From positions 1 through 56,153 of the forward strand of contig DXHY01000040.1 of the NCBI GenBank assembly GCA_019113175.1: a stretch of 56,153 nt of DNA. Direction: 5' to 3'. Under the pieces are notes generated by a model. That model ran no database searches. It was not told where the DNA came from and saw only the letters and a list, made by a program, of their open reading frames with translations. The position numbers were made by a program, and so were the translations under genes. The stretch comes from Candidatus Eisenbergiella stercoravium. Its GTDB lineage: Bacteria; Bacillota; Clostridia; Lachnospirales; Lachnospiraceae. The first letter of the stretch is position 1; every line of letters starts with the position of its first letter. Shown piece after piece: positions 49,069 to 56,153 of this stretch.

Positions 49069-49094
49069 GTTTAAGCTGAAAACTCAGCTTAAAC
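49069..49094 (-). terminator. 11-bp perfect hairpin at the end of the peptide cluster
   Basis: GTTTAAGCTGA and TCAGCTTAAAC pair around a 4-nt loop. It includes the stop codon of the ABC remnant. No T-run follows, so terminator function is uncertain. Bases 48869-49068 beside it hold no convincing gene. Confidence 0.45.
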
Positions 49095-49239
49095 TGCATT
49101 TTTCATCCATCCGAATCCTTCCATCCTCCACCACAACCACCCTGTCAAACAGTTCCAGATATTCATGACGGTGCGTCACCACAACGGCGGTATCCGAAGC
49201 GCGCAGCAGCTTTTCCATCATCCTTCTGCCCTCCTGAAA
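49084..49239 (-). pseudogene. C-terminal remnant of an ABC transporter ATPase
   Basis: In frame after the stop codon of the 343-residue gene, about 50 codons read QEGRRMMEKLLRASDT, AVVVTHRHEYLELFDRVVVV and EDGRIRMDEK. This is the H-loop (THR) and end of an ABC ATPase nucleotide-binding domain; Walker A, signature and Walker B are absent. It differs from the C-terminal ends of both complete exporters in the cluster. An in-frame TAA separates it from the preceding gene, so a deletion or insertion probably removed the rest. Confidence 0.75.
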
Positions 49240-50271
49240 TTACCGGTTCGGAATAGTTTCCATCTCCATCTGGTATATTGCTTTTAAAATACCGCCAATA
49301 GCATATCTGTATTGTTCTTCGATGGACTCCAGACGTAACGCCAATTTTTTTCTGCATTCGATATCTGGTTCGGAACCGGATTTACAGAATTCTTTCAGTA
49401 TCACATTTCTGAAAATCAACGTGTCTCTGACAATATCTCCCATCATTCTGTAAGAGGACTCAAAGGTTCTGTTGGTTTTTAGAAACGCCTCAACTCTGTG
49501 ATACATAAGCTTTACATGGCAGTATGGAAAGCTGATCAGCTTAATTGAAATGTCCGGGCTGTTTAAAATGTAATTTTTCATATTTCCAAGGAAGCCCAGA
49601 CCGTCCAGAGACTCCTTCCTCTGCCAGCTGCCGGACAACAATGATTCCAGACCCTCTTTTATCTTTCTATAATTGATGTCCACACCGACAGTTTTTTTCC
49701 TGATCAGCAATATACCTCCAACATAGTCCATATCATTAAGATACAGATATGCCTCTTCCAGCTGTTTCCTCTTCAGGGCCTGGTGCCGATATGTTCTGTA
49801 ATCAAAATAATCCGCACCGTAAAACAAATCCTCTTCCAGATTATATCCATATATAAAAATTTCATGGTCTCTATGCTGTTTATGAAAATTCTCATAATTA
49901 GAGACATAGTAGGTATTATGGACATAATAAACATAATTTCCGTCATTCAGTGCCCTGATAAGCAGATCTCTGAATTCCTGTCCGGTAAAACTCCTTGGCA
50001 ACAGCTGAAATTCCAACGTCTGAAAATTTTCCCAGTCTGAAAATCCCTCAAATTCAATCCAGCTGTCATATAAAAAATTCTTCCTGCATTTTACTTTAAT
50101 ATAATTCTCCCATATGACATTCTGCATAGTATCAATTTCACTGCCAAGAATCGATAAAATCATGTCAACCGGTGGTATAAAGTTTATTATGGGCTTTGAT
50201 ATATCCAGAATGATATCCATATTTTTCAATGCTTTATCTTTCTTTTTCAATCCTGCCATAATTGGATTCAT
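49240..50271 (-). CDS. Unknown 343-residue protein of the peptide cluster
   Basis: No family is certain. An N-terminal hydrophobic stretch (IILDISKPIINFIPPVDMILSIL) precedes a region with a pattern like the C39/BtrH-N papain-like fold: DGNYVYYVHNTYYV, then DHEIFIYGYNLEEDLFYGADYF with H136, then a helical C-terminus. A clear nucleophilic Cys in the expected place is not seen (C62 is the only N-terminal Cys). Such proteins occur in peptide and polyketide clusters as acyl or peptidyl transferases. The ribosome site is poor and start may be codon 1 or 5. It follows the S8-fusion gene after 76 A+T-rich bases. Confidence 0.7.
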   Translation of the reverse strand: MNPIMAGLKKKDKALKNMDIILDISKPIINFIPPVDMILSILGSEIDTMQNVIWENYIKVKCRKNFLYDSWIEFEGFSDWENFQTLEFQLLPRSFTGQEFRDLLIRALNDGNYVYYVHNTYYVSNYENFHKQHRDHEIFIYGYNLEEDLFYGADYFDYRTYRHQALKRKQLEEAYLYLNDMDYVGGILLIRKKTVGVDINYRKIKEGLESLLSGSWQRKESLDGLGFLGNMKNYILNSPDISIKLISFPYCHVKLMYHRVEAFLKTNRTFESSYRMMGDIVRDTLIFRNVILKEFCKSGSEPDIECRKKLALRLESIEEQYRYAIGGILKAIYQMEMETIPNR

Positions 50272-54001: not shown

Positions 54002-55789
54002 CTACCCCCTGTAATATTCCGCCTGTCTGCGGAACATTTCCTCATATAACCCGTTCTGCTTCATCAGCGATTCATGCGTTCCGTACTCCACCATCCTGCC
54101 GTCATCGAATACGGCTACATTGTCGCAGAATCTGGCGGAGGCCAGACGGTGGGAAATAAAGATGGCTGTCCTGTCCCCCATGATCTCCTTAAAATGCATG
54201 TAAATCTCACTTTCCGAAGCCGCATCCAGCGCCGCTGTGGGCTCGTCCAGAATCACAATGGGCGCGTCCCTGTAATAGGCCCTCGCCATGACCAGCTTCT
54301 GCCCCTCACCTCCGGAGAATTCAATCCCGTTTTCATCGAATTCCCTTCCCACAGAAGTATCGATTCCAAGCGGAAGGGCGTCCACTTTTTTCTGCAGGCC
54401 GCTTTTTCGGATTGCCTCCGCCGCCTTCTGCGCATCATATTCCTGATTCAGGATCATGTTGTCCTTCACGGAAAACGCAAACAGACGGTAGTCCTGAAAA
54501 ACAACGGAAAGCAGGCGGACATAATCGGCATAACATATGCTGGAAATATCGGTTCCGTTATACAGGATCTTCCCTTCCGTCGGTTCATACAGCCTGCAGA
54601 GAAGCTTAATGAAGGTGGACTTTCCCGCCCCGTTTCTTCCCACCACAGCCAGCTTCTCCCCATCGGAAATGGTAAGGGAAACGTTCTTCAGCACCATCCT
54701 CTCTGTATTCGGATAACGGAAGCTGACATTCCTGAATTCGATCACATAACGTTCCTCCCGCCCGCTGATCCGGACCGTCTGCTTTTCTCTGCCGGACGGT
54801 GCCGCCAGCTTTATGTACTCCCTGTATTCCTCCACATAATCTGAAAGGAAGCGGATATGGGCCGCGCCTTCCGCCAGAGAGGCAAATGCGCCTGAGAAAT
54901 TTAAAACCGCTCCCACATAAACGCTGAAATTTCCCACCGTGATCTGTCCAATAACCGCCTGCCACGCCGCATAGCCATACAGGAGGAGCAGCTGAACGGC
55001 ATCCACAAAAGCGGAAAGGAGCTTCACAGCCGCTTCTTTTCTGTAATAGCCCTTCACTTCAGAGGAATATTTCCCCAGAACCTCCTCCACCTTGCCGGAC
55101 AGCCATACGGACGCACGGTTAATGCGCACCTCCTTGGCAAAGGAAAAGTCCGTCATTACGTGGAACAGGTATTCGCTCTTTCTTTCCATGGAAGCCTTCT
55201 GCGGCTGGACGGAATATTTATTCTTTTCACTTCTGAGGCTGAGAAAGTAGTTGGATACAATGACCAGGGCAACGAGCAGCAGAATCAGAGGATGAAGGGA
55301 AAAAATCAGCCAGGAATACCCGACCAGCTGGAGCAGCCCTGTCATCACCTTTCCCATATCCTCATAGATGAAGGAATTGGCCCGCACATTCCGGGAGACC
55401 TTCTGCTGAAGATCGCGTACCGTCCCGTCTTCCAGCTTTTCATAATCCATGTCCAGAAAGTGTCCTGCATAATCGATTCCGTTCATCATGTCACACTGGT
55501 TGACCGACATGTTGATAAAGACGGACAGTCCCAAGCGCAAAAGGCGCAGAACCAGCTCTATTGCCACCAGCGCAAGGATCTCCTGTACTACCACGTTCCA
55601 TCTCTTCTGAGCTGTCAGTTCATCCAGGATGATGCCAGAGAAAAGCAGCGGAACAAACGGTTCGACAGTGTTGAATACCGTAGAGAGCACGCTGGCCGTA
55701 AAGATCCTTTTGCTGATTTTCCAGGAATACCGGAACAGGAAGGAAATATTAAAAAAAATTGTTTCACACTTTTTTTTATTAATTTTCAT
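54002..55789 (-). CDS. ABC exporter half-transporter (peptide-export type)
   Basis: A 595-residue half-transporter, paralogous to the one downstream. Transmembrane domain 1-330; Walker A GRNGAGKST (384-392), signature FSGGEGQKLV (491-500), Walker B IVILDEPTAALD (511-522), H-loop H547. No peptidase domain. Its last residues (RRQAEYYRG) resemble the partner's (RVQAEYYM). The ribosome site is weak (AAGGT at 12 bases). It is the first gene after the precursor-peptide gene and its hairpin, so expression is probably limited by readthrough. Confidence 0.9.
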   Translation of the reverse strand: MKINKKKCETIFFNISFLFRYSWKISKRIFTASVLSTVFNTVEPFVPLLFSGIILDELTAQKRWNVVVQEILALVAIELVLRLLRLGLSVFINMSVNQCDMMNGIDYAGHFLDMDYEKLEDGTVRDLQQKVSRNVRANSFIYEDMGKVMTGLLQLVGYSWLIFSLHPLILLLVALVIVSNYFLSLRSEKNKYSVQPQKASMERKSEYLFHVMTDFSFAKEVRINRASVWLSGKVEEVLGKYSSEVKGYYRKEAAVKLLSAFVDAVQLLLLYGYAAWQAVIGQITVGNFSVYVGAVLNFSGAFASLAEGAAHIRFLSDYVEEYREYIKLAAPSGREKQTVRISGREERYVIEFRNVSFRYPNTERMVLKNVSLTISDGEKLAVVGRNGAGKSTFIKLLCRLYEPTEGKILYNGTDISSICYADYVRLLSVVFQDYRLFAFSVKDNMILNQEYDAQKAAEAIRKSGLQKKVDALPLGIDTSVGREFDENGIEFSGGEGQKLVMARAYYRDAPIVILDEPTAALDAASESEIYMHFKEIMGDRTAIFISHRLASARFCDNVAVFDDGRMVEYGTHESLMKQNGLYEEMFRRQAEYYRG

Positions 55790-55828
55790 GTCTAAAATGA
55801 ACCTTATTTTTTGAGAGATGATTTCTTA

Positions 55829-55857
55829 AAATAGGGCAGAAAATATCTGCCCTATTT
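55829..55857 (-). terminator. Terminator/attenuator between precursor and exporter genes
   Basis: Perfect 12-bp stem (AAATAGGGCAGA with TCTGCCCTATTT) and 5-nt loop, followed on the minus strand by a T-rich stretch, 17 bases after the precursor stop. Such leaky hairpins give high precursor mRNA and low transporter mRNA. Confidence 0.75.
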
Positions 55858-55873
55858 GCCTTAAGGAAATTTG

Positions 55874-55972
55874 TCAGCAGCCCCAGCATCTGCTATTGGA
55901 TCCACCTTCGTTTGCATAGAGATAAACTTTACGGTTACTCTTGCGTGAAGATTTTTTTACCAGTTTCTTCAT
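55874..55972 (-). CDS. Small precursor peptide of a putative RiPP (32 residues)
   Basis: A 32-residue peptide beginning MKKLVKK, then a basic Ser/Arg/Lys stretch, KVYLYANE, and ending GGSNSRCWGC. AAAGGAGG lies 8 bases before the ATG, an excellent site for so short a gene. The leader resembles, from memory, that of the CLI_3235 family of clostridial bacteriocin precursors (MKKL..KK, then a V-x-Y-A segment). The short C-terminal core has two Cys and a Trp. The ABC pair and S8-fusion gene follow on the same strand. A double-Gly cleavage point is possible. Confidence 0.82.
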   Translation of the reverse strand: MKKLVKKSSRKSNRKVYLYANEGGSNSRCWGC

Positions 55973-56004
55973 AAGTACGTCCTCCTTTCTTTAAATGTAT
56001 AGAA

Positions 56005-56019
56005 AATGGTAAAACCATT
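56005..56019. promoter_or_regulatory. Operator-like palindrome upstream of the precursor gene
   Basis: AATGGT and ACCATT pair around AAA, 33 bases before the precursor ATG. A TTGACA hexamer (56036-56041, minus strand) lies upstream, but no good -10 is seen at normal spacing. Bases 56040-56071 form another hairpin (AAGCCT/AGGCTT) with a T-run on the plus strand. No other gene is visible to the end of the window. Confidence 0.35.
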
Positions 56020-56153
56020 CCTATCCTTCCTATAATGTCAAGCCTAAAAGCATTGATTTTTCAGGCTTTTTCTAACTTGTTACCTCATATAAACAGAGCC
56101 AAAAGTGATGAACAGTCATGGTATCCTGTACTGAATAGCTATAGATGGGTACA

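Follow-up and report, generated by a model that had tools for sequence, protein, structure and literature searches.

Comparative analysis of a 32-codon open reading frame of the gut-type bacterium Candidatus Eisenbergiella stercoravium indicates that it very probably encodes a radical-SAM RiPP precursor. The gene lies on the reverse strand of the window (the whole stretch of 56,153 nucleotides that was analysed), which is a complete contig (G000:C57:1-56153) of an 89-contig draft genome. Judged by sequence comparison, this ORF is genuine. A profile model of seven precursors from other loci, with the window left out, retrieves it with an E-value of 1.1e-9, the second-best ORF of the window with the same model scoring 0.57, and the gene order around it recurs in its nearest relative together with genes for a radical SAM enzyme, an acyl carrier protein (ACP) and a transglutaminase-like protein, homologues of which begin another contig (C34) of the same genome. 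More generally, many distantly related bacteria carry gene sets of this type, in which the end of the peptide varies greatly.

The precursor gene and its downstream neighbours

The encoded peptide reads MKKLVKKSSRKSNRKVYLYANEGGSNSRCWGC. The original prediction had started from a tiny gene with a good ribosome site and a basic leader ending in GGSNSRCWGC, and both features are borne out by reading the ORF and the bases ahead of its ATG (Table 1). The strong hairpin reported 3' of the gene is also present, the folded 81-nt stretch behind the precursor stop reaching -19.8 kcal/mol (z -2.47) with 3 of 200 shuffles equally stable, yet a terminator scan of positions 55600-56153 listed neither this hairpin nor any terminator, and a promoter scan of the same interval returned none. 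It is possible that the hairpin acts as an attenuator. The two ABC half-exporters, the S8-fusion protein and a further protein of 343 residues, the last of the series, follow on the same strand as described. Downstream of the cluster, positions 49084-49221 of the reverse strand hold a 45-aa remnant of an ABC ATPase C-terminus.

Table 1. Features of the window and of contig C34 from the same genome
Feature	Position	Strand	Remarks
Precursor peptide gene, 32 codons	55874..55972	-	Leader 1-22, proposed core 23-32 GGSNSRCWGC; boundary suggested by the conserved YxxE
Ribosome-binding site AAAGGAGG	55981..55988	-	8 nt before the precursor ATG; read from the sequence
11-bp hairpin, possible attenuator, 3' of precursor and ahead of first exporter	55830..55856	-	z -2.47
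ABC half-exporter 1, 595 aa	54002..55789	-	No C39 peptidase domain listed; 58% identical to L086 counterpart
ABC half-exporter 2, 602 aa	52190..53998	-	No C39 peptidase domain listed; 56% identical to L086 counterpart
S8 protease fused to TIGR04066 / DUF1611 P-loop domain, 597 aa	50348..52141	-	Proposed leader protease
343-aa protein, BtrH/CtaG/CcbD-like fold	49240..50271	-	Foldseek matches; BtrH_N below cut-off
End of multi-copy repeat, on which the contig stops	56023..56153	.	Same bases end contigs C72, C58 and C7
Acyl carrier protein (ACP)	C34:109-384	-	Same genome as window
Radical SAM enzyme	C34:388-1758	-	Same genome as window
Transglutaminase-like protein, 273 aa	C34:1718-2539	-	Same genome as window

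In the fusion protein the Peptidase_S8 domain spans residues 2-203 and TIGR04066 residues 245-597, the second half also matching DUF1611_C (Pfam). Residues D10, H46 and S192 of the S8 triad, and G393, T394, Q398, G399 and K400 of the P-loop, are invariant in all 12 aligned fusions. The structure model (mean pLDDT 84.5) matches subtilisins as well as 2g0t, 2obn and 7xrj, the last of which is titled N-acetyltransferase DgcN. The second half of the protein is thus akin to DUF1611/DgcN proteins, but in the window it is fused to a protease and placed within a RiPP cluster. A search of the literature on DgcN and DUF1611 returned nothing related, and the literature searched on TIGR04066, with few subscription papers in it, gave no experimental answer as to function.

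The 343-aa protein (mean pLDDT of its model 82.6) finds its best Foldseek matches in AziU2-U3, CtaG and CcbD, with a TM-score of about 0.5. Its likeness to the BtrH/CtaG/CcbD/AziU3 group (E 2e-9 to 7e-5, TM 0.46-0.61) comes with an rmsd of 6-7 Å, an identity of 10-13% and the lack of a conserved cysteine: in a 14-row alignment no Cys column is invariant or nearly so, as a nucleophile of the BtrH type would be. BtrH_N (Pfam) matches below its cut-off (E 0.0028, 18.3 versus 29.7 bits), and when the 14 aligned sequences were used as a profile against solved structures, the best E was 0.26. Members of this group are carrier-protein-dependent, share a papain-like fold and use carrier-bound acyl groups, and the title of one CcbD structure mentions a bound PCP domain. 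The ACP, the BtrH-like fold and the DgcN title fit an acylation step without proving it.

Gene order in the nearest relative and on contig C34

The closest relative was found in Candidatus Avimonas narfia (locus L086, CAJFNR010000026.1), whose precursor, MKKLVKKTSEKKVRMVSLYANEGGTNKQCWGC, has the same length and ends in GGTNKQCWGC as against GGSNSRCWGC in the window; codon by codon, the two genes agree at 9 of the 32 positions, with silent changes at 14 and amino-acid replacements at 9. The order in this locus is contiguous: transglutaminase-like protein, radical SAM enzyme, ACP, precursor, ABC, ABC, S8-TIGR04066 fusion and BtrH-like protein. This is the order of the C34 genes followed by that of the window contig, and hence we are very probably dealing with a radical-SAM RiPP cluster that goes beyond transport and proteolysis. 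Identities between the genome of the window and L086 amount to 50% for the transglutaminase-like protein, 57% for the radical SAM enzyme, 53% for the ACP and 54% for the S8 fusion, and to only 17% for the 343-aa protein and its BtrH-like counterpart. The original description of a transport/protease cluster therefore holds with regard to exporters and protease, but it missed the modifying enzymes, which lie on another contig. A cluster devoid of modifying enzymes was considered and rejected, given that the window is a whole contig and that the radical SAM, ACP and transglutaminase-like genes start C34.

The same circumstance bears on the claim that the gene stands at the head of its cluster, which is not shown, since the contig stops just upstream. 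The last 130-131 bases of the window contig recur at the ends of C72, C58 and C7, while C31, C65 and C64 open with the same 129-131 bases as C34; a four-copy element at which the assembly broke off would account for this pattern. The repeat stops about 50 bases upstream of the precursor ATG, and the ACP, as translated from C34, takes its final residues (KASCIL) from it. Should C34 and the window contig adjoin, the repeat sits at the ACP/precursor junction. We infer this adjacency from synteny with L086, the two contigs having no sequence overlap that we could find. A check of target-site duplications found the bases TA beside the repeat on both contigs, but also on C31; no partner was found in this way for the ends of C58 and C7, and the repeat ends pair uncleanly.

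A search of the genome with TIGR04068 gave seven matches, with a protein on C32 first (128 bits) and the C34 enzyme second (103 bits; 101.8 bits in the family test described below). The search is unspecific, as it produced matches in 14 of 14 control genomes, and the C34 enzyme is preferred to the higher-scoring C32 protein because of its neighbour genes. The S8-TIGR04066 gene itself has one match only in the genome. Two further observations concern the same assembly. What look like exporter fragments (L082 2656-3468 and 3521-4315, reverse strand) lie upstream of the C34 transglutaminase-like gene. On contig C11 (L085 5952-10155, reverse strand), two weak TIGR04068 matches lie close together and adjoin proteins of 134 and 137 aa, one with a ...LMAVSGGWKSCICAF stretch; this is perhaps a second radical-SAM peptide system.

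In a tree of 41 of the 45 S8 proteins, from which four short ones were excluded, the window groups with L086 (100/99), and L087 and L089 join next (96/81). The core form [GS]GxNxxC is present in these four loci and also in L092, which falls outside the four and within the next set of eight (97/93). The L087 locus begins, at a contig end, 110 bases ahead of its precursor. No radical SAM or ACP gene adjoins the precursor of L089, whose genome encodes radical SAM homologues (31-34% identity) elsewhere, and it is this locus that speaks most strongly against a constant set of genes. By genome, the best radical SAM partner is 57% identical in L086, 32% in L087, 34% in L089 and 38% in L092.

A precursor family with a shared leader boundary

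Among 397 Lachnospiraceae genomes, the fusion of the window has 11 matches besides its own, in 10 genomes, with most of the length covered and E-values of 2.4e-30 or better; within the genus it occurs in one of 13 genomes, that of the window. An alignment of 12 fusions used as query led to 44 loci in named genomes, some of them the same records as matches among the 397 family genomes, with hosts in Lachnospiraceae, other Clostridia, Paenibacillus, Tumebacillus, Treponema, other spirochaetes, Latescibacterota and Gemmatimonadota. A genome-contig scan with the single S8 fusion yielded 17 stretches that matched a pattern, no relative among them. Searching the 397 genomes with the single peptide gave matches at E<=1 in 48 of them, including its own, the best other E being 0.027; a peptide match in the same genus (G107, L072) was set aside as chance, with no S8, ABC or 343-aa match nearby.

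Many of the S8-fusion genes are accompanied by small ORFs that begin with basic residues and carry an aromatic-x-x-Glu boundary. A seed model found 27 such ORFs at E<=0.01 in 19 of 39 non-seed loci (609,195 bases), five of the 44 loci having been left out of the count for having supplied seeds, and all 27 lie on the strand of the S8 gene. After dinucleotide shuffling of these loci, three sets returned 0, 1 and 0 matches, and 46 control loci, a smaller body of 147,125 bases, gave none. An iterated search extended the collection to 58 ORFs from 30 of 48 sources (the 44 loci, L064, L066, L068 and the window), of which one (L092 578-703) was judged false and dropped, leaving 57. The exact [YF]xxE boundary occurs in 52 of the 58 peptides, a count that is partly circular in that the set was gathered by a model, the seed-model count being the cleaner test; core lengths range from 5 to 58 residues among the 56 ORFs with a recognisable boundary. 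It is thus conserved peptides in syntenic loci that support the original proposal of a structural gene for a peptide natural product. That the ORF arose by chance, as its mere 32 codons and the lack of any match in NCBIfam (E<=10) or Pfam (E<=1) might suggest, is a negligible prospect against these conserved syntenic peptides, the excess of synonymous codon differences and the near-empty controls, comparative evidence that is strongly contrary.

In relatives, short precursors with a conserved leader and a variable core adjoin radical SAM genes, the enzyme of the window's genome being on C34. By our own gene-calling, the 44 loci comprise ABC genes in 38 cases, radical SAM in 26, ACP in 24, a precursor in 26, a BtrH-like gene in 19 and a transglutaminase-like gene in 4, and 21 loci combine radical SAM, ACP and precursor genes; some of the contigs end early. 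All 24 radical SAM proteins retain CxxxCxxC together with six other cysteines, all 25 ACPs their phosphopantetheine serine and each of the five transglutaminase-like proteins its Cys, His and Asp columns. Among the ten loci from Latescibacterota and Gemmatimonadota, a precursor is present in one (L127) and a radical SAM gene in none, so that the fusion may have another role there. A formyltransferase-like gene adjoins the S8 fusion in L063 (7694-8440, reverse strand), L095 and L103 and hints at variable tailoring.

The conserved [YF]xxE points to a leader boundary that places the Gly-Gly of the window inside the core. The original prediction had envisaged a Gly-Gly processing site, a view that the comparison does not support: the family does not conserve the pair (YNNESC, FMNGEQCC, YMGESCC), and the Pfam matches (E<=1) of either exporter include no C39 peptidase domain. 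Gly-Gly/C39 processing is rejected on both counts. These data also weigh on the possibility that the gene encodes a short, unmodified bacteriocin or signal with cysteines, which would be cleaved at Gly-Gly and leave the cell with no part played by radical SAM chemistry. The window contig, which by itself carries no modifying enzyme, and L089, with no adjacent radical SAM gene, would suit such a peptide, but it is improbable in view of the exporters without C39, the lack of Gly-Gly conservation in the family and the joint presence of radical SAM, ACP and precursor genes in 21 of 44 loci, contiguous in L086. S8 proteases acting at Glu-containing leader motifs are known, for their part, from the class III lanthipeptides dealt with in PMC10885120.

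In the spirochaete loci, tandem arrays combine a single leader type with very different Cys-rich cores (L114 4966-7144, eight precursors; L110 270-1641, five; L101 1732-3395, six; L100 3816-6421, five; L099 4050-4886, three). Cores of only five or six residues (QCCNW, SCCVW, YCCNW, SCCNNW, SCCNIW) lie beside two radical SAM genes in L104 (10606-10689), L106 (8772-8852 and 15360-15443), L108 (8433-8510) and L111 (8750-8827). Cores as short as five residues, together with the intracellular-type fold of the S8 protease, could bring to mind an intracellular cofactor or redox-carrier precursor, such as those of PQQ or mycofactocin, that is not secreted. We deem this marginally less credible still than an unmodified peptide, for exporter genes adjoin 38 of the 44 S8 genes, and hypervariable cores and tandem arrays are more in keeping with a product that is released than with an invariant cofactor.

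Proposed maturation and relation to CLI_3235-type systems

The reading we favour, that of a radical-SAM RiPP precursor, suggests the following pathway. The basic 22-residue leader would be recognised by the radical SAM enzyme encoded on C34, which would alter the core, most likely by linking Cys29 and/or Cys32 through a thioether to a carbon close by, as would be expected of a sactipeptide or ranthipeptide; Asn26, common to the nearest clade, is a candidate for this link. The ACP, assisted by the transglutaminase-like protein and perhaps by the one with the BtrH fold, would add an acyl group, the S8 domain would cut after the conserved Glu22 (YANE|GG), and the two ABC half-exporters would export a product that may serve in killing or signalling. 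A bolder version, which we regard as rather doubtful, is a cut-and-cap pathway in which the S8 domain acts as leader protease and the DgcN-like P-loop domain acylates the freed amino terminus with an acyl group from the carrier protein of the cluster. Radical-SAM-modified, acyl-capped peptides of down to 5-10 residues would then amount to lipopeptides made without NRPS, spread with hypervariable cores over at least Bacillota and Spirochaetota.

One machinery and a conserved leader that operate with cores of 5 to 58 residues show which parts of a precursor are read by enzymes and which vary freely. The shortest cores (SCCVW, QCCNW, GGSNSRCWGC) are simple to synthesise, which makes the chemistry directly testable, and the fused protease/P-loop protein and the carrier protein do the same for the old question of what TIGR04066 does.

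The system most similar to the one described here is CLI_3235, for which NCBIfam defines the precursor TIGR04065, the radical SAM enzyme TIGR04068 (CcpM), TIGR04066 and the ACP-related TIGR04069. Both systems share the same kinds of genes, a basic MKKLxK-type leader and an aromatic residue ahead of the Cys part, and the subtilase and ABC transporter of a CLI_3235-type system are both found in the window. In the window, however, S8 and TIGR04066 are fused, there are two exporters, the cluster (with C34) adds transglutaminase-like and BtrH-fold proteins, and a 10-residue core stands against precursors of 59-68 aa. This bears out the original remark on how much shorter the core is than that of CLI_3235-type precursors: eight of the nine TIGR04065-type precursors read in the family genomes measure 59-68 aa (six over the cut-off, two below), and the ninth (L160) looked different.

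The precursor of the window has no match to TIGR04065 (cut-off 26 bits) at E<=10. Of 35 family members hand-picked from the 57 ORFs, four match this model weakly (best E 8.6e-4), the window not among them. The C34 radical SAM enzyme reaches 101.8 of the 500 bits set as cut-off for TIGR04068, the fusion 93.6 of 200 bits for TIGR04066 over profile positions 2-361 of 361, and the C34 ACP 19.3 of 70 bits for TIGR04069. Since the CLI_3235 models tested are all below cut-off or unmatched, the gene is kept out of CLI_3235; on sequence grounds, it probably belongs to a short-core, protease-fused distant branch of that system that works alike. The best NCBIfam match of the C34 enzyme is to TIGR04463-type radical SAM/SPASM maturases, at 206 bits over nearly the whole model and below the cut-off of 525, a likeness that concerns the enzyme.

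In Paenibacillus polymyxa, SacP23 is a CLI_3235 precursor of 61 aa listed with TIGR04068, TIGR04066, TIGR04069, a subtilase and an ABC transporter, and its eight-gene cluster conferred activity against Gram-positive bacteria in B. subtilis, according to PMC10731318. PMC4573289 describes a similar gene set in Roseburia, with a structural gene that is not obvious there, and further CLI_3235 or TIGR04065 precursors appear in PMC7343975 and PMC7872077. FlmA/OhkA, also considered, represent another precursor family (PMC12703449). The family may already be catalogued in the bioinformatic atlas of radical-SAM RiPPs (JACS 2022). As a last point of contact with known peptides, L066 (8516-8635) encodes a family precursor ending in GKISW, and the KIS family of RaS-RiPP peptides is matched (E 0.0091) by one of the 35 scanned members, probably that of L066.
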